Source: Bryobacterales bacterium (GTDB taxonomy: Bacteria > Acidobacteriota > Terriglobia > Bryobacterales > Bryobacteraceae). Taken from it: a stretch of 46,744 nucleotides of DNA. The notes under the pieces are model-generated. The model was not told the DNA's origin and ran no database searches. It worked only from the letters and a program-made list of their open reading frames with translations. Made by a program: the position numbers and the translations under genes. This document shows, one piece after another, positions 8,201-26,914 of this stretch. Location: positions 1-46,744 of the forward strand of contig PMTR01000027.1 of NCBI GenBank assembly GCA_003167255.1. Direction: 5' to 3'. The stretch's first letter is position 1. Each line of letters opens with the position of its first letter.

Positions 8201-9147
8201 GCTTCCAGTTGGCGAGGCGTTGGGCCGACGACACGCGCCCGGACTTCGCGTGCTTCGAAACGCTCCGGACGCCGCACGAGAAGGGCATCCGGTTCTTCAA
8301 GCTCGACAGCAAGACGTTCACGTTCAGCGTCAAGAAGGGCTTCTTCCGGACGCCCGGCCTTCCGGCGCGGATCGAGGCGAAGCTCCCCACAGCCTGCGTC
8401 GTCGTGGCAGTCGTCGGCGTGGCCAACAACTTCGGGTACGGCACGTTCAGGACGTTCCCGCTGGGCCACCACAGCGAGCCTTTCATGCCTGGCGACCGGA
8501 CGTGCAACGGCGGCGCGTACACGTTCCAGATCCCCGGCGCGCTCGCGGTCGCGGACACGGTGGTCATTCCGATGCGGGTGCAGGATAGCGCGTCGATCCG
8601 GTGCATCTATGCGTACGTCCAGGTGCCGACCACGGACGGCCAGAGCGCGTATCGCGTGAAGGTGTCGCGCGACGACGGCGCGACGTGGGAACTGCTGGAG
8701 TACATGGGAATCGCGCAGAAGCTCCCCGATGGCTACAAGAACACCTATGACTGGCTTGTGGACGGCGGGTACGGCAAGCCCGCCACGCGCCGCCTGCCGT
8801 ACAACGACTTCGGCATTTTCATCATCCAGGACGTGGCACTGGGCGTGGGCCCGCAGACCGTCAACACGGCTTCGTACGGCGCTAACCGGCTGGGCTTCGA
8901 CATGGGCGAGTTCGTCCACATCAACCTCGGCCAAGCAGACGAGGAGTATGTCCAGGTGCTCGCCGCCGACCAGAACGCGCAGACGTTCGACGCGATCTTC
9001 ACGAAGAGCCACAGCATCGGCGCCACCGTGCGTCCGACCATCTGGCCGACTCCGATCCTCAACGAGGGCGACAGCCTCGCGTTCGATATCCTCGCGGTCG
9101 CGACTCCGGACCCCGGCAGCGATCTCACCGTGGTGATCCAAACCTAA
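5287..9147 (+). CDS. Giant tail-tip protein: M-like, L-like (Fe-S) and J-like hub parts fused
   Basis: 1286 residues. Residues ~1-130 resemble a lambda gpM-like domain (RFTVRRSWMNDTQRIALRNF...YGAFTYNAPNDD). About 140-360 match the DUF2163/gpL type: LYQARLIDFDGISQGMGNES, then four cysteines at 295, 304, 325 and 335 in the spacing used by tail-tip L proteins to hold an iron-sulfur cluster (RTCWKAFNSQACPY, SCDK, GCLAHG). About 555-660 carry the hub pattern of gpJ-like proteins (MVNPVWIAVNMVF...LRDWLQEVLMNCLGYYTFSFGKLRIGI). The rest is beta-rich and probably forms the tip and host-recognition region. In lambda these are separate proteins M, L and J. No strong ribosome site precedes the ATG. Domain calls are from motif reading. 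Confidence 0.7.
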   Translation: MSDTIGNVTVPEIAASGTFPIVPEYPYGRASKLDVAIHQFGSGNAKIEQRFLLGTGARRFTVRRSWMNDTQRIALRNFWESKYGPYGAFTYNAPNDDGNGTTAITCRFENEPLSWAMVADWICSIGVTLVEIPAATPAYTLNSTVTRFPSDGLKTALLLQVQQVVPLIKIQPLEGGYPAIYLSDRRCTVGGQLYQARLIDFDGISQGMGNESDDASFTFGNADRVMRDLANDVDMYRATIAFSLFHVGTGVKVDLWKGDIVNWSCDAGPEFKVTGSDGLYELNLPYPTRKISRTCWKAFNSQACPYADHGAMDLVHFPDAAANSCDKNYDTPNGCLAHGMKRYYGGIIAVPQGVRIKDNSTGVWGFGRSMLTSVSLVADSIYDQVLAEVYTDTEMPVNCKVAAGRDESDFYEALGIVGEGPLVAYTPTHYEDKDGDGNAETLVGHTLDGQAHHGFPKNDLGLRTVLGTDPAGAGDFFSLDQSGNLTGGDFRKVYSGNSTLLDNFAAGTAFIVIRRSDAKGLQLSSPGDHAMIATVAQGLSGWVWTSPGVRVYGPCMVNPVWIAVNMVFRARGLRLGADATTAQLNAAEALFDVQAAIDAAAICNDSVTKMVGVGTEAQFAFRGTLQEEKPLRDWLQEVLMNCLGYYTFSFGKLRIGIRENSSVVEAFTEGNILFRTLQLAPAKPSFNHLTANFADQDFAFVNNSVAVYDIDHASYIGGGAGPMYLKSSVNLSGTSTKSQAARIVSTRLREELGGTSAAEWKAARQIGFKTTVLALNTEPGMVCSVTHPDMPGGAGEFRAASWKLNKDFSIDVQGRTTTDSMYDLVMGPKPADVEPTPVPEEILYDTGVPGMVLGTTKLSDYGTFVLDEMEVEPDDAGNMNIVSAHEIAMMLYYVDELTVDLWASIDAAIDKDTDPVTVACTVNPATARVFRVGDFVMFNDEAKSPDVGYRRSYECAQIIGPGGEGDVVPTGSFQLARRWADDTRPDFACFETLRTPHEKGIRFFKLDSKTFTFSVKKGFFRTPGLPARIEAKLPTACVVVAVVGVANNFGYGTFRTFPLGHHSEPFMPGDRTCNGGAYTFQIPGALAVADTVVIPMRVQDSASIRCIYAYVQVPTTDGQSAYRVKVSRDDGATWELLEYMGIAQKLPDGYKNTYDWLVDGGYGKPATRRLPYNDFGIFIIQDVALGVGPQTVNTASYGANRLGFDMGEFVHINLGQADEEYVQVLAADQNAQTFDAIFTKSHSIGATVRPTIWPTPILNEGDSLAFDILAVATPDPGSDLTVVIQT

Positions 9148-12100
9148 ATGGCTGGCGAACCGCTTACCATCTTCGATCCGCGCCGCAACTTCCAGTTGCA
9201 GGGCTTCACCGGTCGCGGCGCGACGACCACGATCCACGATGCATCCGCGACTGGTGTGTCCGTCTCCGGCATCTTCCAAGCCGCAGAGGACTTCGCTGTG
9301 CTCGGGTTTTACAACGCGTACGATTACTTCAACCACCTGCGCCAGAAACACCTGCCGCGGACGGACCTCTCCGGCCTGGTGCTGGAGTTCGATATCGAGT
9401 ACGACCACGCGCTCGACGGCGCGATGCGCCTCGACGCCGCCAAGTACCCGTCCGTCTCGTGGGACTCGATGACCTTCGTCTGCGGCAAGGGCGGCGATGG
9501 CGAGCTCCGCGAGGTGAAGCTCCTCTCATACGCCACGGTGGTGTCCGGAGGCGAGACGCCCGCCAGTGTGAGCGTCGAGGCGTCGGGCACTCAGCCGGAG
9601 TTGGGCGCCGACCACATCGCGGTTACGTTCCGCGACACGGTTTACGATTGCATCCCGTGGGGCAAGCTCTACCAACTGCCCAAGTCGCTCTCCTCGCCCA
9701 ACGGCACCATAGACCTGTGGCCCTCCGATCTCGACCCGGCGACCGGCGAGTTGGAGTTGAAGGTCGGGGACACGGTGTACTTCACGTACGACCCGCTCTA
9801 TCCTGCTGACCCGCCGTACCAGTTGGAAGAGATCTGCCACGTCAGTGCCATCGATCCTGTCTACAAGAACCGGGTGACGTTCGACAACACGCTGCCACAC
9901 GGCGGGGAGACGATCTGCCGGTCGTACACGCCGGGACCGTTCAACATCGTCGCGGCATCGAACGACACGTTGACGTTCATCATCGACCGTACCAGCATTT
10001 ACATCGGCCTCACGGCGGGCGCGGCGCAGACCGTGGATCAGGTCGCCGCCGATATCAACACTGCGGTCGGCGCGGCGGGCCTGGACGCCACTGCTGACAC
10101 CGTGGACGGGTGCGTGCGGATCACTTCCACGAAGCCCATTGGCTCCGGCGAGCTCGTAGCGTACGGCGGCACCGGCCTGGTCACCATCGGGTTCCCGCCC
10201 GGAACGTACGCGGGTGCCGGTCCTCAGTGGCACGTCCACGGACTCGCCACCGCAGCCACGGCGATCCAGAACCTCGCGGACACGATCAACGGTAATCCGA
10301 AGAACTGCTCGGTCACCGGACCCGACCAGTCCAGCGTCATTCAGGCGACTGCCTCCGGCAAGACGCTCACCATCGCGTTCAAGACCAGCCCGCCGCCCGC
10401 GACGGCGATGGGCAAGTTGGGCAACGGCGAGATCCTCACCGTTCGGTCCTGGCACGGAACGGTCCCGGTAGACGCGAGGGACGCCTCGTACGATGCGTCG
10501 AAGGACGTGCAAGGCGTGACGTTCGGCGCGAACCGCAGCATCCGGTTCTCTGGCGGCGATAACGACACCAAGTACCACATCAGCCTCCCGCTGGGCGCGT
10601 TGACCGACAAGAGCAGCGAGGCGGTCCCCACCGTGGACTGCCGGAAGATGTACATGGTGTTCGCGCCACGATTCGAGATCGTGGAGGAGGCGCTGGAGGA
10701 CGGCTGCTTCCTGACCGCAGGCGTGGGACCGGGCGACACGACCTGGAGCGTAGGTAGCGGCGCGGCGTTGACGGGCGGGCGGTACTTCATCGGAGACGAC
10801 ACGACCGAGGAGCGCGTCCTGCTCGTGGCGGGCGGCGCGTCCAGCATCCACGTTCAGCGTGGGCACGAGTCCTCGACGCCTGCCTCTTGGCCTGCGGCCA
10901 CCCGGATGAAGAAGCTCCCGCCGATCTCCGGCTTCCAGTCCGACGTGGAGTGGGGCGCGACCATCTCGAACATCGCTGTTACGGGCGATGCAAGCCTCAA
11001 GGTGGGCGGGGATTCAGCGCGGATCGAGGAGTCCGACAAGCGGTGCCAGTACACCGGCTATTGGGAGGAGTACAAGTACGGCGCGGCGGGCTGGCCCTCG
11101 CAGTGGTGGAGCAAGGGGCACGCGCGGCGCACCGGCCCGAACGATCTCGCGGACGTGCGCGCGGTCACGATCCAGTACTCTGCCACGGAGGAGCACGAGC
11201 TCTACCTCGGCACGTTCCTGTACACGGACTGCGGCAAGGTCGGAGTCACCGTGGACGGCGTGGCGCCCGCCGAATCGCCCCTCGATCTGTACCTCAACGA
11301 GTACGGCGGCACCACGGCGAGCGTGAAGATCGCATCCGCAGTCCCGGCAGGGAACCACATCGTCGTCCTGACCGCCCTGTTCGAATGCAACGCCGACAGC
11401 ACCGGGTACTACTTTTACTTCGATTACCTGTGGCCGCTCGTGCCGCAGGACGTTCCGGACCCGCAGAAGGAGTATCCGGACGTGTCGCTGGCCATCGACT
11501 TCGACACCGACCACGGGTACAAGAAGCCCCCGGCCTGGCACCTGTGGCATCTCCAGAAGCTCGGGTTCAACGGCCACGCCGACGTGTACATGGGCGTCTT
11601 CTGGAACAACAAGCGGAGGCGCGTGGGCGCGAGCTATCCCTACGCGACCATCGAGTACGCGTTGGGCGATGGCGTAGGAGCGCCGCAGGCTGGCGAGGTC
11701 GTCTCGATCAGGGTGTCCGGATCGGCTATGAACCACACCGTCCTGTCGGGCGAGTCCTTGCAGGATATCGCCAGCGGGATGCGCGTGCTGATCAACCAAT
11801 TCTCCGGCGTGTGGGCCGACGATAACTACGGGACCAGCACAACCCTCCGCATCCAGTCCAAGGCTCCGTCCTGGTCGTTCCCCGGCCTGGCGGTGCCGGA
11901 TGGCAAGGCGAGGCTCCAGAGCGCGGCGGAACCGTTCGCGATCACGGCGGGGGCCAACGACGCGCTCCAGTTCACCATTGGCGGCGAAGGGGGCGCCGTG
12001 GTGGCTGTGACGCTGACTGCTGGCGCGGCGCAGACCGCTACGCAGGTAGCGGCAGATATTCAGGCGGCGTTCGATGCGGCTGGCGCTCCGGGCGGCGCGC

Positions 12101-13356
12101 AGGCCAGTGACGGCGTGGTGCTCGTGTGGTCCACCAGGCAGATCGACACCAACGACGTGCCCAATAGCGCGTGGATAACGCTCAGCATGTACGGGACTGC
12201 GTACGCCGCCTCGATCCTGGCCACGGTAACGGACCACCTGGGCGACGTTGGCGCGGAGGGCGATTGGGAACTGATCGACTCCGTGTCGCCGGTCATGACG
12301 GAGGGCGCACGGAAGTGGATTCGCGACCTCGCCAGCCAGTTCGCGGCGGCGGGTATCCTGGCGTCGTTCGCGTTCTCGATGGAGGTCTATAACCCTCCCG
12401 CCGCGATGCGCGCCAAGTACCTGTCGCTCGCGGGCGGCGTGGTCGCTCCCGGCCAGGACGTGTTCCTCAACGTGCCCTCGCACCAGATGCACTTCGGCAC
12501 GCGCGTGCGGAACTACCTCAAGCAGATGTACAAGGAGTGCGCCGACGAGATCGCGGCGGCTGGCCTTCCAGTCGTGCTCCAGTTTGGTGAGACGCAGTGG
12601 TGGTATTTCGACAACCGCCTGGCCGACGCGCAGGGCGGGATGCCGTTCTATGACCAGGAGACAATCGATGCGTTCGCGGCGGCGAAGGGTCACCAGATTT
12701 GGCCGTTCACTTCCAACACGGATGATCCGGCTGGCGATCCGGCGCATCCGAACGTGAGCGCGGATTTCCTTCGCGACCGGATCTGGTCGTATTGCCAGGA
12801 CGTGATCTCGTACGTCCGCGCGTCCCATCCGGCCGCGCTGTTCGAGTGCCTGTGGCCTCTCGACGCGAACCAGGGGAAGCCTGGCGTCGGCACCTACCGG
12901 AGGCTGCTGATGCACGTCAACCTGCCGCGCGAGTGGCAGAACTCCTCCTATGGCATCAAGTACTTCCGGTGCGAGGGTTTCGACTATGACATCTGGCAGA
13001 AGAACGCGACGTTGATGGGCCAGACCATTCGCTTCGCGGCACAGACGCTGGGGCGGCCGGCGGGCGAATGCATGTACCTCGCGGGACTGTACGGCCCTCC
13101 CGACCCGCCGATGGCGCAGGCGTACGGCGTCTGGTTGCAGTCTCCGTTCTACTCTATGTCCTTCTGGGCGTTCGATCAGTTCTGTCTCAACAGCAGGCCG
13201 ATCCCTCTGGAGGTGTGGGTGCAGTCCGTGTCGGCGGCGTACCACAAGCCGCGCGCCGCCCGTGCCGCGGAGGTCGCTCGCGTGGTGGAAATCGTCGCGC
13301 CCGCTAGCGGCGCACTCAACCGGTTCAAGTTGAACGAGAGGAAGCTCAATGGCTAA
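9148..13356 (+). CDS. Large tail protein with TIM-barrel-like domain (non-contractile tail sheath type)
   Basis: 1402 residues starting directly after the previous stop (TAA then ATG, no spacer). The N-terminus (PLTIFDPRRNFQLQGFTGRG) is typical of tail proteins named non-contractile tail sheath / TIM-barrel proteins. Two copies of a ~70-residue module, NDTLTF...GLTAGAAQTVDQVAADI, lie at residues ~265-330 and ~930-1000; weaker relatives lie between. The C-terminal ~330 residues have a glycosidase-like TIM-barrel look (ASFAFSMEVYNPP, VVLQFGETQWWYFDN, CLWPLDANQGKPG, MSFWAFDQFCL). Whether it cleaves glycans is unknown: acidic residues in strand-end positions (GETQWW) are compatible but not proof. 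The stop overlaps the next gene by 8 bases. Confidence 0.6.
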   Translation: MAGEPLTIFDPRRNFQLQGFTGRGATTTIHDASATGVSVSGIFQAAEDFAVLGFYNAYDYFNHLRQKHLPRTDLSGLVLEFDIEYDHALDGAMRLDAAKYPSVSWDSMTFVCGKGGDGELREVKLLSYATVVSGGETPASVSVEASGTQPELGADHIAVTFRDTVYDCIPWGKLYQLPKSLSSPNGTIDLWPSDLDPATGELELKVGDTVYFTYDPLYPADPPYQLEEICHVSAIDPVYKNRVTFDNTLPHGGETICRSYTPGPFNIVAASNDTLTFIIDRTSIYIGLTAGAAQTVDQVAADINTAVGAAGLDATADTVDGCVRITSTKPIGSGELVAYGGTGLVTIGFPPGTYAGAGPQWHVHGLATAATAIQNLADTINGNPKNCSVTGPDQSSVIQATASGKTLTIAFKTSPPPATAMGKLGNGEILTVRSWHGTVPVDARDASYDASKDVQGVTFGANRSIRFSGGDNDTKYHISLPLGALTDKSSEAVPTVDCRKMYMVFAPRFEIVEEALEDGCFLTAGVGPGDTTWSVGSGAALTGGRYFIGDDTTEERVLLVAGGASSIHVQRGHESSTPASWPAATRMKKLPPISGFQSDVEWGATISNIAVTGDASLKVGGDSARIEESDKRCQYTGYWEEYKYGAAGWPSQWWSKGHARRTGPNDLADVRAVTIQYSATEEHELYLGTFLYTDCGKVGVTVDGVAPAESPLDLYLNEYGGTTASVKIASAVPAGNHIVVLTALFECNADSTGYYFYFDYLWPLVPQDVPDPQKEYPDVSLAIDFDTDHGYKKPPAWHLWHLQKLGFNGHADVYMGVFWNNKRRRVGASYPYATIEYALGDGVGAPQAGEVVSIRVSGSAMNHTVLSGESLQDIASGMRVLINQFSGVWADDNYGTSTTLRIQSKAPSWSFPGLAVPDGKARLQSAAEPFAITAGANDALQFTIGGEGGAVVAVTLTAGAAQTATQVAADIQAAFDAAGAPGGAQASDGVVLVWSTRQIDTNDVPNSAWITLSMYGTAYAASILATVTDHLGDVGAEGDWELIDSVSPVMTEGARKWIRDLASQFAAAGILASFAFSMEVYNPPAAMRAKYLSLAGGVVAPGQDVFLNVPSHQMHFGTRVRNYLKQMYKECADEIAAAGLPVVLQFGETQWWYFDNRLADAQGGMPFYDQETIDAFAAAKGHQIWPFTSNTDDPAGDPAHPNVSADFLRDRIWSYCQDVISYVRASHPAALFECLWPLDANQGKPGVGTYRRLLMHVNLPREWQNSSYGIKYFRCEGFDYDIWQKNATLMGQTIRFAAQTLGRPAGECMYLAGLYGPPDPPMAQAYGVWLQSPFYSMSFWAFDQFCLNSRPIPLEVWVQSVSAAYHKPRAARAAEVARVVEIVAPASGALNRFKLNERKLNG

Positions 13357-15718
13357 CTATCCCGGCGCAATCGACAGCGCCGCCAGCCTCTACTCGCCGG
13401 TCGATGCGTCCTCCGCGAAGCCCCTGGAGACGACGACCACGAGCGCGGTCCTGGCTGGCGACTCCACGATCAACGTGGCGTCCACCACCGGAGGCTTTGC
13501 CGCCACGTGCGGCATCCTCTCGCTTGACGACGAACTGATCGTGTACACCGGCAAGACGGGGGCGCAGTTCACCGGGTGCCAGCGTGGAGCGTTCGGCACC
13601 GCTGCCGCAGGCCACGGCAGCGGCGTGGCAGTGAAGGCGAACATGGTCGCAGGCTTCATTACCGCGCTCCAGTCGGCGGTACTGGCCATCGAGAACGAGA
13701 TCGGCACGACAGCGGCGCGCAACTATGTCCGGAAGGACGGAGCGGTCACAGTCACCGGCCTCAAGACTTTCCAGGACGGCGCGGAGTTCGGCGCGGGCAC
13801 GAAGTCGAGCACCGGCCTGGTGCGCCTGCCCAACGCTGGCGCGGTCAAGTGGAGGAAGCAGGACAACTCCGGCGACCTCGGCATCGCCTTGAACGCGAGC
13901 AACCACCTCGCGATGGACGCCATCATCGACTTCGCGGCTGGCCAGACGTTCGGCGCGAGCACCGTTCCGGACGCGACCACGATCGCCAAGGGCATCGTCC
14001 AAATTGACGCGGTAGGCGGGATTAGTGTCGCGGCGGGCGTCATCTCGCTCTCTGTATCCGGAGTCGGGCCTGGCACCTACACCAAGGTGACAGTGGACTC
14101 CTGGGGCCGCGCAACGGCTGGCACGACGCTCTCTGCTGGCGACCTGCCCAGCCACACGCACACAGCCTCCGATATCGTTTCCGGCGCGCTCCCGTTCAAG
14201 ATCCAGAAGGCGGGATCGGCCATCGGAACGCGCCGCGGGCTGAATCTGATCGAGGGTGCCAACATCACCCTGACGGTCGCGGACGATTCCGCCAACGACC
14301 GCGTGAACGTCACGGTGGCAGCGGCAAGCGGCGCCACCCACAACCTCCTGTCAGCGACGCATCCGGACACGGCGGCCGCCACGCCGGTCCTGGGCGATGT
14401 GATCGCGGCGAACGGGACGCCAGCCTGGGCTCGCCTGGCGGGGAACATCACCGCGACCCGGAAGTTCCTGCGGCAGACCGGCACCGGCGCGGTGTCCGCA
14501 CTTCCGACCTGGGACACTCTTCTGGCCGGCGACATCCCGTCGCACACCCACGCCGAGTCGGACGTCACCAGTCTGGCAACCGATCTGACGAATCGCCCGG
14601 TCAAAGGCGGCGCGTGGGCCGTTTCGAAGACGGCGGTCATCAACTCCTCCGGCCAACTGGACGGCGCGGCTGGCACTGTCACGGACTGCGTGCTCGTGAA
14701 CGGAACCAGCGTGGCCAAAGCGAATGCGGCCCACACCCACGCCGCCACGGATATCGTCAGTGGCACCCTCGATAACGCGCGCACTTCGGGAACGGCCAGC
14801 GCGACGGCGAGCACACTGGTTTTGCGCGACGGCTCCGGCGGTGCTTCCTTCGCTTACGTGGCGGCGAACAATCAGTGGGCGTACCTCGACTCCCACTTCC
14901 AGTCACTCGAATCCGGCGCCTATCAGACGGTGGGCGGACCCTTCGAGAACATGGCGAAGTACTCCGAGGATTTCACAGTCGCCACCTGGGACAAGAACGG
15001 CGGCTCCTGCTCAGTCACGGCGAATGCCATCGCCGCGCCGGATGGCAACACGACCGCGGACACCATCACGGCAGTGACCGCGACGCCGATCATCCAGCAA
15101 CAGGTGGCTGGCCTCGTCTCCGGGGGCCAGTACACGTTCTACGTCTGGGGCAAGATCGCGTCTGGAACGAAGCAGGTGTCCATCGCCATCGTGGACAACG
15201 CATACGCCGGCTACCTCGCGGGCCCCGCGAGCATCACGCTCACGACGTCTTGGCAGCGATTCAAGATCACCGGTACACTGGCGGGCGGGCAGACCGGCCT
15301 TTGGATCGTCGTGCGCCAGTTCGCCGGCAACGGCGACAACTGGACCGCCGGTGCCATCTACCTGTGGGGCGGGTGCCTGCAACAGGGCAACGATCCGAAG
15401 AACGGGTACGCCCGCACCTGGGCGTCGCAGGCGGGATTCACCGCGGCCGGAATCGCGTGCGGCGCGACAGTGATCGCCGCCAAGGACACCGCGGAGTCGC
15501 CGCTTCGGATCTATGGTCCCGGATCGAATCTCGCGGATCACCGTCTGATCGAGGTCACCGGCACCGGCGAACTCATCATCGCGGGCGGTACCGGCAACGG
15601 TTACCGCCTGGCGGAATTGATGGGCGCCACAAATCCCTCCGGCTGGTCCGGCGTGCTGAAGGTGAAGAACCCCGCCGGAGCCACGGCGGGCTACATCCTG
15701 TTGTATTCCAACCCTTAA
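13349..15718 (+). CDS. Tail fibre protein with C-terminal carbohydrate-binding-like module
   Basis: 789 residues, rich in Ala, Thr, Gly and Ser. The N-terminal ~110 residues read as an attachment domain (YPGAIDSAASLYSPVDASSAKPLETT ... LSLDDELIVYTGK ... GCQRGAFGTAAAGH). The shaft contains repeated LPSHTHTASDIVSG / IPSHTHAESDV / NAAHTHAATDIVSG motifs, typical of trimeric fibre shafts. Residues ~530-690 (ENMAKYSEDFTVATWDKNGGSCSV ... YTFYVWGKIASG ... AIYLWGGCLQQG) resemble the jelly-roll carbohydrate-binding module common in phage fibres. It overlaps the upstream gene by 8 bases. It is probably the main receptor-binding fibre; specificity cannot be read. Confidence 0.75.
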   Translation: MANYPGAIDSAASLYSPVDASSAKPLETTTTSAVLAGDSTINVASTTGGFAATCGILSLDDELIVYTGKTGAQFTGCQRGAFGTAAAGHGSGVAVKANMVAGFITALQSAVLAIENEIGTTAARNYVRKDGAVTVTGLKTFQDGAEFGAGTKSSTGLVRLPNAGAVKWRKQDNSGDLGIALNASNHLAMDAIIDFAAGQTFGASTVPDATTIAKGIVQIDAVGGISVAAGVISLSVSGVGPGTYTKVTVDSWGRATAGTTLSAGDLPSHTHTASDIVSGALPFKIQKAGSAIGTRRGLNLIEGANITLTVADDSANDRVNVTVAAASGATHNLLSATHPDTAAATPVLGDVIAANGTPAWARLAGNITATRKFLRQTGTGAVSALPTWDTLLAGDIPSHTHAESDVTSLATDLTNRPVKGGAWAVSKTAVINSSGQLDGAAGTVTDCVLVNGTSVAKANAAHTHAATDIVSGTLDNARTSGTASATASTLVLRDGSGGASFAYVAANNQWAYLDSHFQSLESGAYQTVGGPFENMAKYSEDFTVATWDKNGGSCSVTANAIAAPDGNTTADTITAVTATPIIQQQVAGLVSGGQYTFYVWGKIASGTKQVSIAIVDNAYAGYLAGPASITLTTSWQRFKITGTLAGGQTGLWIVVRQFAGNGDNWTAGAIYLWGGCLQQGNDPKNGYARTWASQAGFTAAGIACGATVIAAKDTAESPLRIYGPGSNLADHRLIEVTGTGELIIAGGTGNGYRLAELMGATNPSGWSGVLKVKNPAGATAGYILLYSNP

Positions 15719-16290: not shown

Positions 16291-18657
16291 ATGCTCGGCG
16301 AAACGACGGCTACCACCGTGGTCAGGTTGCCCTCTGCCCAATGCCGGCGGCTATTCGCCGGCCGAAGGAATCCACCCGCCCGCGGGCGGGTGGTCCTCTT
16401 TGTCCTAGCTGTGCTTCTTCTGTTTCTCGCCGCTTGTTCTAGGCAGGGCAATTCTCCGGCACAAGGCCAGGTCAGTTACGGTGCGAATCGGGAACTTCGG
16501 ACAACAGCTTGGGAATCGGAACTTCCGGCTGACGTCGTACTTGCGATAGATCAATCTGGCAGCATGAGTTCGGGTTCGGCTCCGACAGACCCCAGCGGCT
16601 TGCGAGTGGAAGGCAGTAGATCGTTTCTGGAGTTCATTGCGAATCGTAGTAATCCAGACTCGGCAAACCGTTTTGGATTGGTCAACTTCGGCACAGATGC
16701 GCCCGTCGCATCTGCGGTGCCCTTGACGCGAATTTCTTCGGTTGACGATCCAGCGGTTTCGCAACTACGAAATAGACTCAAGGCCTTGAGGATGGGCGAC
16801 ACAAATTTCACCGCCGCTCTAAAGAGGGCAATGGATCTGCTCCGTGCGGGTGGTTCGCTTCAGGAAAACCGCAACAGGGCGATCGTTATCTTCACCGACG
16901 GCGATCCGGATGATCCACGGAAGTTGCGGATGGAGAAATATTTCGACGAGATTCGCGACTATTATCAGACGGAACTCCGTCCGGCGCATGTTGCGCTGTT
17001 CGTGGTCGGGATCGACAGTGTGGGAAAACGCTGGACACCAACTGCTGCGCACTGGCGAAGCATTGCAGGCGACGATCACGTTTTTACGACGCCTGATATG
17101 GACTCGCTTAAAGCGCACTTTAACCGAATTGTTCAGAGGGTGTGGCACCTGCCCGAAGTGGAATCAGTGCGGGTTGCATCTGGGAAGAACAGTGACTTCA
17201 CCGTTGAACCATATCTCGAGGCAGTGGAGTTTCACGTCTTCCCTGGCAAGGACGGCCTGTCGCTCAGAATCAATCGCGCGGATGGAAGCATCGTGCATCC
17301 AGGCACCGATCCTGACGCTCCGCCTGTCAAGAAGTTGAGCACGTTTGATCGGATCGTCGTGAAGGATCCGAAGCCAGGCTTGTGGGGCTATCAAGTCGTC
17401 GGAGGCTCCGGCTCAGTCGAAGTGCTTCGCAACCCCATCCCTCTTCGACTGCAACTTATCAGTCCTTCGCGAATTCACCCTCAGGGGAAGCCTATGCACC
17501 TTGTGGCCGAATTTCGACGCCTTGATGGAAGCCCCGTACCATCAGACCGCGACTATCCCTTGGCACTTTCTGCCGAAGTACGGGACCCTTCTGGACGTGT
17601 CACGCCGGTAAAGTTCGGGCTCGACCGCGGCCAGAAAGGGATTTATCAGGCCGAACCAGATGTTAAGGAAACGGGCGCCCTCGGCGAGTATCGCGCGGTG
17701 CTGAAGGTAAGCGGCGGGGACAAATACCGCAGTAAGCAGGACGTGAGTATCGAAGTCCGCGCATTCCCATATCTTGCGATTCAAGAGCCGCAAACCTGGG
17801 CTGTATACTCTCTCGCGGATCGAATTCCGATCCGGGCGCAATTGATGCAGGCCGGCAAACCAATAGTATCGGCGACTGTGTTCTCGAACCATGCCGATCA
17901 ACTCGTGATCGCCCAAACTACGCGGACTCCAGACGGACAACGCGGACCGGCTGTGTGGCTCCAAGCGTCGTCCGACGATCCGTCGCGATTCGAAGGCTCG
18001 GCGCCAGTGCCAAAAGCCGTCGAAGGTCGATATGAGGTTGTACTCAAGGTGGCGCCGGAGGAAGAACAGAAGGCTGCTATTGCGGACCAAACCGTCCTTT
18101 CCGTCACGATGCGGCAACCAGTGTGGCGCAAGTACCTCCCATGGGCTATCACAGCCGTCATCGTCTTCCTGGCGCTAGGCGCTTGGGATCGACGGCGGCG
18201 CGTCAAGGCGTTGCGGTTTTCGTTCTATTACTGGACGGAAGAGATGTCCGCACCGGACGTAGTGGTGTTCCGCAGCAAGGCCGAGATGACAGAACTCGGG
18301 CGAGCCCCCGTACGGGTCATCCGCATTGGCAAGACGCGCCACGTGCATATCGAGGGTTTGAGTGGGACGACATTCCTCGCTCCCGATGGCCGCGACCGGG
18401 CACCCTTCGATGCATTTGAGAATGGAACGGTAGTCGTTAGGCCCAACGCGGGCCGCCCATTTGCCATGAACTATGGCTTGGGTCAGTCAATTTCGAAGCC
18501 GGCTGTTTTTGACAGTGATGATGGTTTGAATAACGCCAATCCAGCGAACGAGACCGGGTGGGAAGCAGAGCCGGGTGCGGGTTCACCAGTAACGCCGCCA
18601 TCGAAACAGGGTAAGGGTCCTGCGGGCGGCGGCGATGATTTCAAGTGGGATGTCTAA
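16291..18657 (+). CDS. Membrane-anchored von Willebrand factor A domain protein
   Basis: 788 residues from the ATG at 16291, which has AAGGAG 12 bases upstream. A second possible start is GTG 16390, which would begin directly with the hydrophobic segment VLFVLAVLLLFLAAC; Cys49 in LAAC looks like a lipobox, so export as a lipoprotein is likely with either start. The vWA domain (about 80-290) has a full MIDAS set: DQSGS (Asp87, Ser89, Ser91), GDTNF (Thr171) and FTDGD (Asp203). Residues ~300-600 are beta-rich, Ig-like. A second transmembrane helix lies at ~615-634, followed by RRRR and a ~150-residue cytoplasmic part ending in a Gly/Pro-rich tail. So the sensor part is outside and a domain faces the tubulin-like partner encoded next, whose chosen start is 16 bases beyond this stop. 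Confidence 0.8.
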   Translation: MLGETTATTVVRLPSAQCRRLFAGRRNPPARGRVVLFVLAVLLLFLAACSRQGNSPAQGQVSYGANRELRTTAWESELPADVVLAIDQSGSMSSGSAPTDPSGLRVEGSRSFLEFIANRSNPDSANRFGLVNFGTDAPVASAVPLTRISSVDDPAVSQLRNRLKALRMGDTNFTAALKRAMDLLRAGGSLQENRNRAIVIFTDGDPDDPRKLRMEKYFDEIRDYYQTELRPAHVALFVVGIDSVGKRWTPTAAHWRSIAGDDHVFTTPDMDSLKAHFNRIVQRVWHLPEVESVRVASGKNSDFTVEPYLEAVEFHVFPGKDGLSLRINRADGSIVHPGTDPDAPPVKKLSTFDRIVVKDPKPGLWGYQVVGGSGSVEVLRNPIPLRLQLISPSRIHPQGKPMHLVAEFRRLDGSPVPSDRDYPLALSAEVRDPSGRVTPVKFGLDRGQKGIYQAEPDVKETGALGEYRAVLKVSGGDKYRSKQDVSIEVRAFPYLAIQEPQTWAVYSLADRIPIRAQLMQAGKPIVSATVFSNHADQLVIAQTTRTPDGQRGPAVWLQASSDDPSRFEGSAPVPKAVEGRYEVVLKVAPEEEQKAAIADQTVLSVTMRQPVWRKYLPWAITAVIVFLALGAWDRRRRVKALRFSFYYWTEEMSAPDVVVFRSKAEMTELGRAPVRVIRIGKTRHVHIEGLSGTTFLAPDGRDRAPFDAFENGTVVVRPNAGRPFAMNYGLGQSISKPAVFDSDDGLNNANPANETGWEAEPGAGSPVTPPSKQGKGPAGGGDDFKWDV
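16343..16393 (+). promoter_or_regulatory. Two adjacent GC-rich hairpins over the start region of the vWA gene
   Basis: The first hairpin is GCCGGCG / CGCCGGC (16343-16349 and 16356-16362, loop GCTATT). The second, 16372-16393, is a perfect 22-bp palindrome with arms CCACCCGCCCG and CGGGCGGGTGG, followed by TCCTCTTT. The alternative GTG start of the vWA gene (16390-16392) lies inside the second arm. A terminator- or attenuator-like role, or sequestration of that start, is possible. Confidence 0.4.
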
Positions 18658-18673
18658 CGGGGGATACTTTCAT

Positions 18674-21600
18674 ATGCCAGCCGACAACAATCAAGATGGA
18701 AACCAGGCCACTGGCCTTCAAAGGGCACTGGTCATCGGTTTGGGCGGCAGTGGTGCCGAAGTTATCATGCGAGTGCGCCGCCACCTCGCCGATCATTTCG
18801 GATCGCTGAAGAACATCCCCGTAATTCGGTTCTTGTATATTGACACGAATCCAGAATGGTTTCAGAGAAACGCGTCCGAAATCGAGAAGGATATCCAACT
18901 CGACACGAGCGAAATGGTCGATGCGCAGATCCCCGATGCCACGAACTTGTACCGTGGTATTCAGAACCGCGAGTATGACAATTACGAGTGGTTCTCGATT
19001 GACCGTCTTCAGAGCCATACCAATGTGCTCAACGGAGCAGGCACAATTCGCCAACTCGGGCGATTATGTTTCTGGAAGCACTACACGTCCATCCGGGACA
19101 AGGCGTCGGCGTTACTATCGGAGCTGAACAAGGGTGCCCATAATCAGTTCATGCAGGAACAACACGGCATCAGCATGCTCCCGGGCATTAACATCCATAT
19201 AGCGGCAGGGTTGGCCGGTGGCACGGGATCGGGCATGTTTCTCGACGCCGCCTACCTGGCTCGCCACCTCGCCGGACTACTCACAATTCAGGGCGGATGC
19301 CAGACCGTCGGTTATCTGTTCATGCCGGATTCCTTCGTTGGTCTTCCGGCAACGAATCCACTTCCAAACGGCTATGCGGCGTTGCGCGAGTTGAACTACT
19401 ACTCTTACTCATATGCGCCCACAAATACCCTGGCGTCTCTATTTGGACAGCCGCGGTGGTCGGCGATGTACACCGATAAGCCTTCGGATCATGTTGAGTC
19501 CACTGCGCCGCCGTTCGACTGTTGTTATCTCTTGTCGCGATCGAACAAAAACGTCCAACTCGAAAAAGAAGATGTCTTCGCGATGGTCGCGCGCTCGCTG
19601 TTCCAGGAGTTCACTTACGATTTCTCGCGCCTGAAGCGATCGATGCGGTCCAACATCGTTCAAAACATACATGCAAACGACGGCGAGGACTCTCCGGCAC
19701 GTTTCATGAGCTTCGGGCAGTCAGCAATTCTTTTTCCGCGAAACGAGGTGGAACGCCTCCTTCAATCCCGGCTCGCGCTTCTTGCAGCCAGGCTGTGGGC
19801 TGAGAGTGTTGGCGAACTCGCGAACAGCATCGGCGGCAAGCCAGACGCTACTGCGGATGAGAAGCAGCAGGCCGAAAATGCTGTGTCGTCGTTAAATTCC
19901 AAGGCTGAGGACGGCAACTTTATCATCGCTGTTCGCGCCTACCTCAACCGGCAATTCGTGTCTGCGCACGGGCTCAAGTCGACCGATGTGCTTGCTGCCG
20001 TGCTGAAAGAGAACAACGAGAGGCTAACGGATGTCCCATACGAACTTGCTGAATCAGTAAAGCAGCGCTGGACTAAGGAAGAATGGGACTACGAGAGGTA
20101 CGTCGGCGAAGTTACCGCCACCTGGGAGCGTTGGAAATCGGATTTCCTTGACGAAGGCCCGGATCCAATGAAGTGGGGCCCACAGATCCGAAAACTCGAC
20201 ACAAACCGGGCCCGCGTTTTGGCCCGTTACCGCGACGTGCTCTACTCTCAAATGATGATGTTGTTCGACGATGCCCAGAAGTATGGCCCCGCCTTCGCGC
20301 TCTGCGCTACCCGCCAACTTCGCGGTGCGCTGTCACAGATCAAGACCAAGCTTCTGAGCGAAGCGAATGATGCCGTGCAAATTGCCACCCAACTTGGCGA
20401 TGTGTATATTTCTAATAAGGCCGCCGGTTCCAGCGGGGGAAGCCTTACCGATAGCATCATCAACCCGCGAATCACGGAGGAGTTGGGCAAACTACAGAAA
20501 ACAACCAAGGCCTTCCTGCTGCACAAACGCGATCGCGTTAACGAAGCCGCCTATTCTTATCTGCGGTTTTGTTGCCATTGGTGTCGCGCCCGAGTCGAGG
20601 AGCGCGCCCGCCGGCTGGGCGCCGAGATCATGGACGCGCTGGATAGCACCCTCCAAGATATCGACCGCCGGATCTGTGAGCAGGCGCGAAAACTCGCCAA
20701 ACTACAGCTCAAGTTGATGCGATTAAACCGCGAGCTGAACGAAAAAGCGGCGAAGACGCAGACGATCGGCAAACTCCTGTACAACAAGGATCTCCTCGAT
20801 ACGCTCGAAGCCAAGCTAAAACTCAAGCAAGGCGACCGGTACGACCCCGCCCATATCGCGGACACCGCTCTGCGTGCACTTGGGAAAACGCTACGCGATA
20901 TCAGTGAGGAAGAGATCCCGAAGCTTATGGATAAGCTTATGGAGGAGGCGAAGGCAGCCATAGGGAGCCTGGATGAGTCTGGCGCGTCGGGCACTGATTT
21001 TGCGGCGTACGACCTGTTGGCTGCGCTCTATCCCTCTGATCGCGAGATAACGGACGTTCTGATCCGAGCTATTTCCGACGGTGCGCCGTTCGTGCAGTTT
21101 TCGCCGAACGCGACGGGCACGACGTGGGACGAAGGGAACGATCTGAAGACGACCTCGGGCGTCGCCCTCCACGGCGTGAGGGCCAAGCCGGACGACGACC
21201 CCGATCCCGAACGGGCGCGCGTTCACCAGTCCATTCTCCGCGCATGGCCGAACGCCCAGCCCGGTTTCTACGATACTGCCGATAGTAGTCAAATCTCGTT
21301 CTTTCAAGAGTGCGGCGGTTATCCCTTGCGCGCCATAGCAGGCATGGAGAAGATGCGTGAGTCGTACATGCAACAACTTTCCGATGACAACGCCGCGCCG
21401 CTGCACATCTTTAAGAACGAATGGGCGGTGCTGCTGCCGGACCTTTTCCCACCCAAGCAGAGACTAGACCGTGCGCTGATCGCGAAGACAGCAGGCATAT
21501 GTCTCGGCATTATTTCGACTAAGATGGTCGATCATGGCGGACACGCAGTCCAGATGTTCGTATTCGAGGAGATCAATACGACCACCGGGAAGCCGAAGAT

Positions 21601-21898
21601 CACCCGCCTTCATGAGGAGGATCGTGGCATCTTCACGAAGTTTTTGAACGAGCCCGAACTCATTGATCGAGTCGCGAAGGCTATTGCCGCGAAAATTAAG
21701 GGGGCCGATGCTGCGACGCGCCGAATCTACGCCAAGCAGCTCGTCGCACATCTTGACGACCTTGAGGCGTCGATCGCGAAGTCGCTTGACACTTCGATCG
21801 ATCCACAAACCTCTCCAGCCTACGTCGATGAGGAGCGTCGGATTACTCGGTTTATGGAAGAACACGGGTTATCAATCGCCGATCCCGTTTCAATCTGA
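18674..21898 (+). CDS. Large tubulin/FtsZ-like GTPase-fold protein (Tubulin_2 type)
   Basis: 1074 residues from ATG 18674, chosen because GGGGGA (18659-18664) is well spaced; in-frame ATGs at 18635 and 18650 overlap the vWA gene. The N-terminus has LVIGLGGSGAEVI (residues 19-31), the phosphate-binding first loop of tubulin-like proteins, and residues 177-188 read AAGLAGGTGSGM, the tubulin/FtsZ GGTGSG signature. The nucleotide-binding fold fills about the first 350-400 residues. A long helical, coiled-coil-prone part follows (about 640-790, LQLKLMRLNRELNEKAAK) and then a C-terminal region without a recognised domain. It is about three times FtsZ length, as in the poorly studied Tubulin_2 family. 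Polymerisation and function are unknown; pairing with a vWA protein suggests a membrane-linked complex. Confidence 0.8.
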   Translation: MPADNNQDGNQATGLQRALVIGLGGSGAEVIMRVRRHLADHFGSLKNIPVIRFLYIDTNPEWFQRNASEIEKDIQLDTSEMVDAQIPDATNLYRGIQNREYDNYEWFSIDRLQSHTNVLNGAGTIRQLGRLCFWKHYTSIRDKASALLSELNKGAHNQFMQEQHGISMLPGINIHIAAGLAGGTGSGMFLDAAYLARHLAGLLTIQGGCQTVGYLFMPDSFVGLPATNPLPNGYAALRELNYYSYSYAPTNTLASLFGQPRWSAMYTDKPSDHVESTAPPFDCCYLLSRSNKNVQLEKEDVFAMVARSLFQEFTYDFSRLKRSMRSNIVQNIHANDGEDSPARFMSFGQSAILFPRNEVERLLQSRLALLAARLWAESVGELANSIGGKPDATADEKQQAENAVSSLNSKAEDGNFIIAVRAYLNRQFVSAHGLKSTDVLAAVLKENNERLTDVPYELAESVKQRWTKEEWDYERYVGEVTATWERWKSDFLDEGPDPMKWGPQIRKLDTNRARVLARYRDVLYSQMMMLFDDAQKYGPAFALCATRQLRGALSQIKTKLLSEANDAVQIATQLGDVYISNKAAGSSGGSLTDSIINPRITEELGKLQKTTKAFLLHKRDRVNEAAYSYLRFCCHWCRARVEERARRLGAEIMDALDSTLQDIDRRICEQARKLAKLQLKLMRLNRELNEKAAKTQTIGKLLYNKDLLDTLEAKLKLKQGDRYDPAHIADTALRALGKTLRDISEEEIPKLMDKLMEEAKAAIGSLDESGASGTDFAAYDLLAALYPSDREITDVLIRAISDGAPFVQFSPNATGTTWDEGNDLKTTSGVALHGVRAKPDDDPDPERARVHQSILRAWPNAQPGFYDTADSSQISFFQECGGYPLRAIAGMEKMRESYMQQLSDDNAAPLHIFKNEWAVLLPDLFPPKQRLDRALIAKTAGICLGIISTKMVDHGGHAVQMFVFEEINTTTGKPKITRLHEEDRGIFTKFLNEPELIDRVAKAIAAKIKGADAATRRIYAKQLVAHLDDLEASIAKSLDTSIDPQTSPAYVDEERRITRFMEEHGLSIADPVSI

Positions 21899-21939: not shown

Positions 21940-23316
21940 ATGAGAGCGTCACGATTCAATATCGTCGTCCAAGCCCCGAGCAGAGGTGACGTGATTGTCT
22001 TCAACTCCTTGCGGGGGGCGCTCACGTGTTGGACGACGGAAGAGTACCGTGGGGCAGTCGCGAAGTTTCTTGCGGGTTCTTGCCCGTCTGCTTCCGACGA
22101 CATAGAACAGCAGCTCTTGGATAGCCTGCACGAAAGCGGATACGTAATTGCCGACGATTTAGATGAACTGGAGGTCGTGAGGCAGCGAAAGCATCTCGGT
22201 ATGACGGACGAGAACAGATTGGATGTCATTGTGATGCCCAATATGTTCTGCAATTTTCGATGTCCCTATTGTTATGAAGAGCATCGGCCGGGAGCGCTGA
22301 TGACAGATGAAATAGAAAGCCGAGTAATCCAGTTTCTAGACCGGGCAGTGCCAGGGTTTAAGGTACTCTTGTTGAGCTGGTTTGGCGGAGAACCGCTGCT
22401 AAACTACCCCCGCATTCTTACCATCACCGAAGCAGCCAAGCGTGCCTGCGAACGGAATGGTGTCGCATTGATCACACACCTCACGACAAACGGCTACTTA
22501 CTGACGCAAGACGTGGCGCAAGACCTTGTCAACTGCGGGATACATAATTACCAAATCACTGTCGATGGGCCCCCTGCGATACATGACCGTACGCGAGTGC
22601 TAAGATCTGGTGCGGGAACGTTTGCAACGATCTTCCAGAACATCCACGACTTGGTCAGAGCAGACTCCCGCGTGCGGGTGTCCCTTCGAGTCAATTTCAA
22701 TCACACCAACCTCGACTCAATTCCGGAACTCCTCGCCCTGATTGCGCCGGATGTCAGGCCGGCCTTGCGTGTCGTTTTCGAGCCGATTTTTGGGCAGACT
22801 TGCTGGAGCGCTACTGCGAATTTGACCACAAATGCGATTTCGTCTCGCACCGCGGCGTTCTATGAGATTGCACGGACTTTGGGGTATGACATCGTCCTTG
22901 GGGGTTTGCCGGTGGGGCAGTTGATTTACTGCTATGCGGAGCGCAAGAACCAGTACATCATTAATTACAACGCGGATATCTTCAAGTGCAGCGTGGGAAG
23001 CTTTGCGACAGAAGATCGATTCGGATTTCTGACCGATGATGGTAGCGTTGTTCAGGACGAAATACGTTTGAACCAGTGGTTTGGTATGGAGAGCATTGCG
23101 GAACAGTGCCAAGCGTGCGCCGTTCTTCCCCTGTGCATGGGGGGCTGTAGGAAGGCGAGGAGTGAATCGGGCGCGACTGGAACATTTTGTAAACTCGTCC
23201 CTACGAATGCATCTTACACGTTGAAGAGTATTGCGTTCGGCACGTTTGAGAGCGAACTGGCCAGTTTGTGCGGGCCGCCTGAGATAGGAGAAAAGGACCA
23301 CACCTTATGCGAGTGA
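21940..23316 (+). CDS. Radical SAM / SPASM peptide-modifying enzyme
   Basis: 458 residues. The first ~88 residues (NIVVQAPSRGDVIVFNSLRGAL...LLDSLHESGYVIADD) look like the small N-terminal recognition region of radical SAM peptide maturases. The radical SAM core has CNFRCPYC (Cys104, 108, 111) for the SAM-binding cluster and WFGGEPLL (149-152). A C-terminal SPASM domain shows seven cysteines (331, 350, 390, 393, 399, 403, 417) for auxiliary Fe-S clusters, with CQACAVLPLCMGGC. Enzymes of this build install thioether or other crosslinks in ribosomal peptides or activate sulfatases. A 45-residue Cys-rich peptide starts 10 bases before this gene's stop and is the obvious substrate. It follows the tubulin-like gene by 41 bases on the same strand. 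Confidence 0.85.
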   Translation: MRASRFNIVVQAPSRGDVIVFNSLRGALTCWTTEEYRGAVAKFLAGSCPSASDDIEQQLLDSLHESGYVIADDLDELEVVRQRKHLGMTDENRLDVIVMPNMFCNFRCPYCYEEHRPGALMTDEIESRVIQFLDRAVPGFKVLLLSWFGGEPLLNYPRILTITEAAKRACERNGVALITHLTTNGYLLTQDVAQDLVNCGIHNYQITVDGPPAIHDRTRVLRSGAGTFATIFQNIHDLVRADSRVRVSLRVNFNHTNLDSIPELLALIAPDVRPALRVVFEPIFGQTCWSATANLTTNAISSRTAAFYEIARTLGYDIVLGGLPVGQLIYCYAERKNQYIINYNADIFKCSVGSFATEDRFGFLTDDGSVVQDEIRLNQWFGMESIAEQCQACAVLPLCMGGCRKARSESGATGTFCKLVPTNASYTLKSIAFGTFESELASLCGPPEIGEKDHTLCE

Positions 23317-23444
23317 TCTTGAAGCCGAAGAAAGAATCAGAGATACGTGCGACTGTTGATCGCAAGACGAGCAGCGAAGAAATCGTTAAGGAGATGACCA
23401 CTAAGGCGCAGTGTTGCGTCGATCATCTTTGTGGCTGTAAATGA
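23307..23444 (+). CDS. Candidate RiPP precursor peptide, Cys-rich C-terminus
   Basis: This 45-residue ORF starts MRVILKPKKESEIRATVD and ends AQCCVDHLCGCK. The first ~33 residues are charged and leader-like (with SSEEIVKEM); the last ten hold four cysteines in the pattern CC-x4-C-x-C, a plausible modified core. AAAAGGA at 23291-23297 gives a ribosome site 9 bases from the ATG. The ORF overlaps the end of the radical SAM/SPASM gene by 10 bases, so translation is probably coupled. Length, Cys-rich end and position fit substrates of thioether-forming maturases (sactipeptide/ranthipeptide type), but the linkage, cleavage site and activity cannot be read from sequence. No transporter or peptidase gene is adjacent. 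Confidence 0.7.
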   Translation: MRVILKPKKESEIRATVDRKTSSEEIVKEMTTKAQCCVDHLCGCK

Positions 23445-24952: not shown

Positions 24953-26914
24953 ATGAGGCAACGGCCGGTACTCCATGTTTTTCTCATCAAGCCCTCCAAA
25001 TACGACGATGATGGCTTTGTCATTCGGCACTGGCGAGGTGTTTTACCCAGCAACACTCTGGCTTGCCTGAACGGTCTCACCGAAGACGTTCGGCGCCGGG
25101 GCCTTCTTGGTGAAGTGGAACTCAGAGTACATCTGATAGATGAGGCGGTGGACAAACTCCCGCTCGGCAGGATTGCCAGCCTAAACCGAACATCTGGAAG
25201 CCGGGTCGTGGTGTGCTTGGTGGGGGTCCAGACAAATCAGTTCTGCCGAGCAGCAGATATCGCATTGCGCCTTCGACAAGAACACATCACCGTTATTATT
25301 GGTGGTTTCCACGTAAGCGGTATGTTGGCGTTGTTTCAGACCATACCGCCAGAGGTCCAGCAACTGGTAGACGCGGGCGTCAGTGTCGTGGCTGGGGAAG
25401 TCGAGCACCGCTGGGCGGAGATACTCCGCGACGCTTATGAAGGGAACCTGAAATCGATATATCGGTTCATGAACGAACTTCCCGATCTCTCAGACGTACC
25501 AGTTCCCCTCATGACCACGGATTACCTACGTAAGTTCGTCTCCTCTAACTTTGGCACAATCGATTGCGGTCGAGGCTGTCCGTTCAGCTGTTCCTTCTGC
25601 ACTATCATTAACGTCCAGGGGCGCAAGGGCCGGCACCGATCTCCCGAGTCAATTGCGGCCGCCATTCGTCACAACTACCTGAAGCATGGTATCAGCTTCT
25701 ACTTCTTTACAGACGATGATTTTGCCCGTAATTCGGCATGGGAGCAGATATTCGAAGAACTGATCAGCATGCGAGAGCGAGATGGAATGCGGATCAGGTT
25801 CATGATGCAAGTGGACGCCCCTTCGTCTAAGATTCCTGGCTTTGTCGAGAAAGCGGCTCGCGCAGGTTGTAGAACCGTCTTCATTGGCATCGAAAGCCTA
25901 AACCCCAGGAACCTCAAAGAGACCGGTAAGGCTCAGAACCGGATAGAGGAATACAGGAGCCTCATCGACGTCTGGCACAGCGCGGGAGTTAGCACACACG
26001 CAAGTTATATCATTGGGTTTCCGCACGACACCGAGGAAAGCGTGAGGGATGACTTGACGAGGTTAATGGCTGAGGTTCGGCCCCAGCGGGCGTCGTTCTT
26101 TATGTTGATGCCCCTCCCCGGATCGCAGGACCACAAGAGCATGGTGGAAGCCGGTGTTTGCATGGCCTCGGACTACAACTCCTTCGACTCCTCTCACGAG
26201 ACACTCTCCCATGCACACCTGAAGGATGGGGCATGGACCCGCACCTACCAAGAGGCTTGGAACCGCTTTTACAGTTTCGAGAACATGAAGGCCATATTGT
26301 CTCAAGCCCGCCCAGACAACTACTGGGACATCTTCAGGTACTTCTACTGGTACAAGAACTCCATCCGTAACGAGGCCATGCACCCGATGCTCACCGGTTT
26401 CTTCCGGATTAAGGATCGGGTAACCCGACGGTCGGGATTCCCCCTCGAGGGGCGTTTCACGCATATACGCCGCCGCATCCCCGAGATCTACAGATATGTG
26501 CGCGATGCCATCGGTCTGACGCTCGAAATGGAGGAACTGTGGCTCCAGACTCGAAGACGCAACGAAACCGAGCGTCGACTGCTGGAGGAGTTTGGCAAGA
26601 TGCGGGCCGAACTTGGCCATGGCCTGAGGATCTCAGAACTGCGAGCGGCTTACGCTAGGGCCAAACTGCACATACCGTCGATCGAAATTCCCTCCCGCCT
26701 CAGCTTGTTTAAGGACAAGGTGTCGATCCTTCGCGTGAACCCGTTCCTCCACACGCGTCACGACCTGACAGCATTTTGGCGCGGCGTACGCGGCCACTTG
26801 TCCCAGAGACGGATCACAACTCTCCTAAGAGTCGACCGCTTGGTGCTAAATGGGTTCCGAGAGATCCGTCTTGCTGTCGGGTTCCTCGTTGCCCTAACCA
26901 CTGCGCGGGGTTAG
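24953..26914 (+). CDS. B12-binding-type radical SAM protein
   Basis: 653 residues with a strong ribosome site (AGGAGG, 24940-24945). Residues ~1-190 have the layout of a cobalamin-binding Rossmann domain (VVVCLVGVQTNQFC ... ITVIIGGFHVSG ... AGVSVVAGEVEHRWAEIL), although no DxHxxG motif is seen. The radical SAM core has CPFSCSFC (Cys209, 213, 216). FTDDDFARN, IGIESLNP and MPLPGSQDHKSM follow as in B12-radical SAM enzymes of lipid, hopanoid or natural-product modification. The last ~200 residues are helical and basic. Substrate unknown: next to a desaturase, a lipid is one guess; near the peptide system, a second peptide modification is another. It faces the patatin gene. Confidence 0.8.
   Translation: MRQRPVLHVFLIKPSKYDDDGFVIRHWRGVLPSNTLACLNGLTEDVRRRGLLGEVELRVHLIDEAVDKLPLGRIASLNRTSGSRVVVCLVGVQTNQFCRAADIALRLRQEHITVIIGGFHVSGMLALFQTIPPEVQQLVDAGVSVVAGEVEHRWAEILRDAYEGNLKSIYRFMNELPDLSDVPVPLMTTDYLRKFVSSNFGTIDCGRGCPFSCSFCTIINVQGRKGRHRSPESIAAAIRHNYLKHGISFYFFTDDDFARNSAWEQIFEELISMRERDGMRIRFMMQVDAPSSKIPGFVEKAARAGCRTVFIGIESLNPRNLKETGKAQNRIEEYRSLIDVWHSAGVSTHASYIIGFPHDTEESVRDDLTRLMAEVRPQRASFFMLMPLPGSQDHKSMVEAGVCMASDYNSFDSSHETLSHAHLKDGAWTRTYQEAWNRFYSFENMKAILSQARPDNYWDIFRYFYWYKNSIRNEAMHPMLTGFFRIKDRVTRRSGFPLEGRFTHIRRRIPEIYRYVRDAIGLTLEMEELWLQTRRRNETERRLLEEFGKMRAELGHGLRISELRAAYARAKLHIPSIEIPSRLSLFKDKVSILRVNPFLHTRHDLTAFWRGVRGHLSQRRITTLLRVDRLVLNGFREIRLAVGFLVALTTARG

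Follow-up and report, generated by a model that had tools for sequence, protein, structure and literature searches.

A putative minimal radical-SAM RiPP cassette near a phage tail module in a Bryobacterales bacterium

Known radical-SAM peptide systems and the layout of the cassette

PapB and other ranthipeptide maturases, as well as the SCIFF maturase (PDB 5wgg), are SPASM radical-SAM enzymes that make cysteine thioethers. In the Clo7bot locus L170, several tandem precursors with longer cores and cysteines along the peptide are found near an ABC transporter. The CefA precursor of L169 is long and built of Cys repeats. In the window, by which we mean the whole stretch of 46,744 nucleotides analysed here, a radical SAM/SPASM gene is instead followed by a single precursor with a nine-residue C-terminal core. 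The features of this cassette are as follows.

21940-23316, + strand: gene of a radical SAM/SPASM peptide maturase (putative), 458 aa, an open reading frame with a Pfam match; stop TGA at 23314-23316
23291-23297, + strand: AAAAGGA, ribosome-binding site of the peptide gene by direct reading, 9 nt ahead of the ATG
23307-23444, + strand: precursor peptide gene, 45 aa (MRVILKPKKESEIRATVDRKTSSEEIVKEMTTKAQCCVDHLCGCK); ATG at 23307, stop at 23442-23444
23307-23327, + strand: leader motif M-R-V-I-L-K-P, which fits M-x-[FVWY]-[IL]-x-x-P of Clo7bot/CefA-like precursors
23412-23438, + strand: core CCVDHLCGC (CC-x4-C-x-C), the same in both known copies with silent changes only

The first-pass annotation had described a SPASM enzyme with seven auxiliary-cluster cysteines and, starting 10 bases before its stop, a small ORF with its own ribosome site and a C-terminal CC-x4-C-x-C core that it did not assign to a named RiPP class. 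Upon rechecking, the 3' end of the maturase gene and the peptide ORF were found to share exactly 10 bases, the ribosome site was located, the peptide was read to end in QCCVDHLCGCK, and no NCBIfam, Pfam or PHROG model matched it. The maturase has a Radical_SAM match (PF04055, 64 bits) and the CX3CX2C motif as C104-x3-C108-x2-C111. All seven SPASM-type cysteines (C331/350/390/393/399/403/417) were also identified, by eye, from the pattern characteristic of the domain. Judged by the motif and the seven-Cys pattern, the protein is a SPASM-domain radical SAM peptide maturase. A leader-binding PqqD-like (RRE) domain had no Pfam match in it at E<=1, and an AlphaFold2 model built from two alignment rows reached a pLDDT of 39. 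The nearest solved structure by sequence was 5wgg_A, 'Radical SAM domain protein', which we take to be CteB, a SCIFF maturase. The only PADLOC match of the cassette was a weak one to viperins, through the radical-SAM domain.

Compared with NCBIfam, the maturase matched 67 families at E<=10, and every one of the best 25 of the 67 was below its cut-off. The best match was the Clo7bot maturase/CtpM (TIGR04334; 201.1 bits versus a cut-off of 600, aligned across residues 3-413 of 458), followed by TIGR04463 (197.1 versus 525), CefB NF038107 (194.1 versus 600) and the geopeptide maturase TIGR04280 (187.4 versus 400, across residues 2-407, a likeness at the maturase level only); the PapB family gave 103.7 bits versus 340. 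The four best matches are all maturases of Cys-rich precursors, and they align over most of the window maturase. The CC-x4-C-x-C core also departs from the cysteine at every fifth position by which CefB systems are recognised, and the ranthipeptide Cys-X3-Asp/Glu motif is absent from the window peptide, which has only C-x-D and C-x2-D. A maximum-likelihood tree was built from 41 rows, with a midpoint root that serves only as a drawing aid. In it, the window maturase and its one close homologue (see below) formed an isolated pair (support 100/100) on a stem of 1.25; the pair falls outside the clade of 17 rows (98/99) to which the Clo7bot and TIGR04463 rows belong. By these comparisons, the cassette is a putative new lineage that would work like the Clo7bot/CefA-type systems but stands outside every named family tested. 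Among the literature matches listed, from which subscription journals are mostly missing so that silence is no proof of absence, SPASM, TIGR04463, TIGR04334, TIGR04280, Clo7bot and geopeptide were not mentioned.

The start of the window peptide, MRVILKPKK, resembles that of the Clo7bot precursor, and both fit M-x-[FVWY]-[IL]-x-x-P, a motif that we formulated after seeing the precursors. It is found at the starts of the annotated Clo7bot (MKFIKKPARKF, L170) and CefA (MQYLVQPL, L169) precursors and of unannotated ORFs in L013 (MQFIIEPIK), L023 (MKWLVEPL and MDWIIEPI) and L027 (MEWIENPID). Our regular-expression scan of L009-L040, L057, L058 and L169-L177 also gave chance-looking matches, on other strands among them, and many distant maturases in these loci had no visible adjacent Cys-rich small ORF. 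Some distant superfamily maturases do adjoin Cys-rich small ORFs, a few of them with a similar N-terminal motif. Within the bacterial family of the window, genome G622 has a 51-aa peptide ending in CCTPSNNCSCCNQN at 50 bases downstream of a maturase with 30% identity, and genome G002 (L058 726-1249) has two tandem downstream Cys-rich peptides with the common leader MSDFLITELDDRYE and different ends, possibly a candidate RiPP with a conserved leader and a variable core. Within the class, G737 (L204 2850-3029) has a 59-aa peptide, ending in CGCNGRCYCPCA, upstream of a maturase with 29% identity.

The second copy and the conservation of the pair

The sole close homologue in everything searched is on the IMG/VR contig IMGVR_UViG_3300043540_000937 (3300043540_000937), hereafter the viral contig, to which the loci L041, L042, L051 and L110 all belong. 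Counting the window itself, we identified three maturase matches among 61 relatives (E<=1e-20), three among 257 genomes of the order (E<=1e-40), four among 399 genomes of the class, and 38 among 396 genomes of the phylum, where the others had at most 35% identity; there was no other close homologue in any of these overlapping samples or in two further scans of genome contigs. Viral contigs were also scanned by pattern, and the viral contig alone was recovered. In IMG/VR, KAQCCVD occurred in 3 stretches and CCVDxxCGC in 18, among which tblastn detected the peptide or the maturase only in the same contig. Annotated phages and plasmids had only distant maturases (below 60% identity in 63/63 and 138/138 records, and at most 32% among the matches listed) and no match to the peptide. 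Only two copies of the cassette are thus far known, and the second comes from a viral collection.

The maturase of the viral contig has 63% identity to that of the window, and all ten cysteines of the radical-SAM motif (three) and the SPASM type (seven) are unchanged. Its peptide also has 45 residues, with 76% identity and the same end, KAQCCVDHLCGCK, and is preceded by AAGGAG at a position equivalent to AAAAGGA in the window. The peptide gene starts 25 bases past the maturase stop; thus, the 10-base overlap is not kept. Between the two peptide genes there are 7, 5 and 23 substitutions at codon positions 1, 2 and 3, corresponding to a pN of 0.125 versus a pS of 0.76, at which silent sites are saturated. 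The last 13 codons have 10 silent and no replacement changes, leaving 13/13 residues identical. This pattern indicates strong purifying selection, strongest in the Cys core. Because the peptide is conserved in the viral contig with an identical C-terminus despite the silent changes, the 45-aa ORF is, as judged from the two sequences, a real gene. The maturase and peptide genes, adjacent and co-oriented in both copies, are co-conserved as a pair, with the core as the most constrained part.

The first-pass annotation had read the locus as the layout of a ribosomal peptide natural product and expected, next to homologous maturases, a peptide with a variable leader but a constant Cys pattern. The co-conservation in the viral contig supports this layout: in the only close homologue (1/1), a peptide with an identical Cys pattern follows the maturase directly. 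A freely variable leader was not borne out, as the whole peptide is 76% identical between the two copies. A short conserved precursor with a putative leader and core beside a modifying enzyme is what would be expected for a RiPP cassette. No promoter match was found at either copy, and terminator matches showed no clear excess at either. When the window genome was searched for a further CC-x4-C-x-C peptide, the pattern occurred at 64 places, the window's own included; four of the 63 others were read. The most similar of the four, CCVDSGCGC at C32:33928, lies antisense within a DEAD-box helicase-like ORF and was rejected, as were the other three, which were not peptide-like.

Phage tail modules and their cargo slots

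Upstream of the cassette, the window contains a tail module and two further large genes.

5287-9147, + strand: putative tail protein A gene, Phage-tail_3 below cut-off; 70% identical in the viral contig (L051)
9148-13356, + strand: tail protein B gene, non-contractile tail sheath TIM-barrel above cut-off; 48% identical in L051
13349-15718, + strand: tail fibre-like protein gene, CBM_4_9; 67% identical in L051
15739-16086, + strand: small post-fibre gene, the last recognised gene of the module, matched in chromosomal tail loci
16291-18657, + strand: VWA-domain protein gene (PF00092, 2e-14), overlapping the Tubulin_2 gene
18635-21898, + strand: Tubulin_2-like protein gene, 1087 aa (PF13809, 7e-66), ending 41 bases ahead of the maturase start

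The three large tail-module proteins of the window (5287-15718) are homologous to the three around the cassette in the viral contig (L051/L110). We use the tail label because B has a TIM-barrel sheath match and the fibre a baseplate match, together with DUF2460 and tape-measure/endolysin matches in the viral contig (L041). When compared with 50,697 phage records, tail proteins A and B matched none. In IMG/VR, 126 stretches were confirmed to encode a relative of tail protein A, and 80 of them were kept; 60 of the 257 order genomes also have one at E<=1e-20, fragments included. Of 20 chromosomal tail loci, 12 had a match to the small post-fibre gene (query residues 7-115), with 59-74% identity in ten and 30-33% in two. 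The tail module also occurs a second time in the window genome (L203, G000:C140), with 95% identity in the best tail B segment and without the cassette.

In the viral contig, tail genes A and B are separated by an insert with the maturase and peptide genes, which lie on the other strand (L110). Both sides of this A/B junction are visible in 48 of the 80 viral loci; the genes abut (<60 bp) in nine, and the other 39 carry 162-3792 bp. The cargo forms 27 clusters unrelated by tblastx, one of which is this RiPP cassette; besides the viral contig, none of the 80 loci had the maturase or the peptide. The junction seems to be a general cargo site of the tail family. We scanned ORFs, picked by eye, in 18 of the 26 other cargo clusters, and clear defence or toxin-antitoxin matches were found in six of the 18: BrnT, HicA, a Schlafen AlbA_2 protein, which counts as conflict-related, and the following three.

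L084, 13855-15405: CBASS cyclase, SMODS-like (PADLOC cyclase match, 2e-123), with Cap15
L075, 10668-11354: Peptidase_U49, the Lit phage-exclusion family
L107, 12577-14274: GmrSD

In the remaining 12, the matches were to NYN, a LinB-like nucleotidyltransferase, a ParA-like ATPase, MerR or HEAT repeats, or they were weak or absent. No Pfam match was obtained for the occupants of L061, L068, L077 and L096 and no PADLOC match for those of L101 and L116; these could be unknown conflict genes. Two chromosomal A/B loci were examined, of which L151 has a TIR_2 protein and L152 only a TPR match.

In the window, the A/B junction is empty, and the maturase-peptide pair lies past the fibre, behind the VWA and Tubulin_2 genes and at a distance of 5.9 kb from the last gene recognised as part of the tail module. 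This slot is less well bounded than that of the viral contig. The VWA and Tubulin_2 genes were rejected as required parts of the cassette, since the viral contig carries the cassette without both. They are possibly co-transcribed with the maturase gene and may be a system of their own. Relatives of the Tubulin_2 protein were found at E<=1e-20 in 6 of the 257 order genomes, the window's included; the five other loci are about 27-34% identical and had no maturase or VWA match in their short flanks, and PADLOC gave no match for the window protein. None of the 20 chromosomal tail loci contained a homologue of the maturase, the peptide, VWA or Tubulin_2. Two genes downstream of the peptide, separated by a fatty-acid desaturase gene, a second radical SAM protein is encoded at 24953-26914, for which the best 25 of 32 NCBIfam matches, PhpK, HpnJ and lipid B12-rSAM included, were all below cut-off.

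Defence genes also occur past the fibre elsewhere. The BREX genes BrxL, PglZ and PglX (L199 11901-19893) and PsyrT/PsyrA (L196 10712-14119) directly follow the tail module, and the post-fibre ORFs include a ThsB-like TIR in L200 and, in L197, a mad2 match that covers only part of the protein; these four loci were picked by eye. In a less biased comparison, 17 of the 20 loci were used (L198, L201 and L202 having been excluded beforehand), and the two longest ORFs within 4 kb past the module were set against those at 17 arbitrary control places from genomes of the same set. PADLOC matches below 1e-50 were present in 3/17 loci versus 0/17 controls (one-sided Fisher, about 0.11). At 1e-15 there were 44 families versus 3 in the controls; among the matches listed for the best 25 of the 44, many came from a single PsyrT protein and one was of the DpdE/ZorD type. 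The enrichment of defence genes in this second slot is weak and suggestive only. By eye, many post-fibre neighbours resemble ordinary chromosomal genes, and the slot may therefore be just the edge of the element. No repeat shared by the junctions of both copies was seen by eye that might represent an insertion scar.

The phage tail modules at which the two copies of the cassette are found are homologous, and one copy occupies a slot that holds unrelated cargo elsewhere. A variable slot within a conserved module, as expected for phage accessory cargo, was found for one copy of the two, that of the viral contig (L041/L110). The phage setting of this copy is partly given by construction, because it was found in a viral collection; this does not apply to the tail family. 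We consider it likely, with a probability of about 0.72, that the locus is a minimal radical-SAM RiPP cassette, made of one SPASM maturase and a 45-aa precursor, that serves as accessory cargo of tailed phages or prophages. The pairing of the two genes as a real cassette of a new lineage has strong support, and there is good support for reading it as phage cargo that would travel with this tail family.

Possible chemistry and roles of the peptide

The N-terminal MRVILKP of the peptide would be the leader docked by the maturase, which would use 5'-deoxyadenosyl radical chemistry together with two auxiliary Fe-S clusters. One or more crosslinks might thereby join cysteines of QCCVDHLCGCK to carbons nearby, presumably as thioethers with the loss of 2 H per link. 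PapB is described as accepting Cys-Xn-Asp with n=0-6 (PMC9413430). This tolerance makes a link from C36 or C37 to D39 a chemically reasonable guess, although still a guess. Since no exporter or leader protease, and likewise no immunity gene, was seen beside either copy, the modified peptide probably stays and acts inside the cell.

An intracellular product could serve in phage-host conflict, in the defence of the lysogen, in superinfection exclusion or in an addiction role. This proposal, which we hold tentatively, is based on co-location, because CBASS, Lit-like, GmrSD, BrnT and HicA genes are found in the slots as well, as are BREX and PsyrTA in some genomes. A comparable idea has been put forward for lanthipeptides of Streptomyces located in defence islands, for which intracellular action against phages was proposed and protection was reported (PMC12360287); another study reports lanthipeptide clusters near defence genes (PMC12715929). 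The Streptomyces peptides, like the one proposed here, would be RiPPs acting intracellularly against phages, but they depend on another enzyme class and chemistry, and the protection reported there is only inferred here (PMC12360287). The more specific proposition, that this is the first radical-SAM/SPASM RiPP of phage-host conflict, in which an intracellular crosslinked nine-residue Cys core of a temperate phage family shields the lysogen or kills infected cells, seems rather unlikely at present.

Other functions were considered. The four cysteines of the C-terminus, possibly with the histidine, could bind a metal or an Fe-S cluster, modified or not, and give the lysogen metal tolerance. CCVDHLCGC is a plausible ligand set, and a MerR-family regulator in another A/B cargo (L091) suggests that metal genes may enter the slot; with neither a metal transporter nor a metal regulator seen beside either copy, and with a full SPASM maturase next door and a shared leader motif that point to modification, we regard metal handling as improbable. 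We give a similarly low probability to a secreted bacteriocin, a crosslinked peptide exported against competitors as a phage-carried fitness gene. Many radical-SAM RiPPs are antimicrobial, and an ABC transporter is located near the maturase in two related loci (L170 and L173), but no transporter, protease or immunity gene was seen in the insert of the viral contig or next to the window pair. The phage-associated location of both copies, and a core that is invariant while the leader drifts, as for a ligand, could also fit a phage signal or lysogeny-control peptide that feeds into the choice between lysis and lysogeny or shuts down host functions. Such a role has little likelihood, given that no adjacent receptor or regulator was seen in the viral contig and that the site is a variable cargo slot, not a regulatory region. 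That the ORF is a chance or vestigial frame, with the maturase substrate elsewhere, might be suspected from its shortness, the missing family match and the overlap with the maturase end, but is highly improbable for 45 codons conserved at saturated silent sites, with an unchanged core and a ribosome site of their own in both copies.

The cassette, as putative cargo of this tail family, links radical-SAM peptide chemistry with phage accessory and defence cargo, two fields that have barely been in contact. With two genes in about 1.5 kb and a very short conserved core, both its chemistry and its biology could be tested on one plasmid. The tail-gene slot could also be searched in these bacteria for conflict genes as yet unknown.
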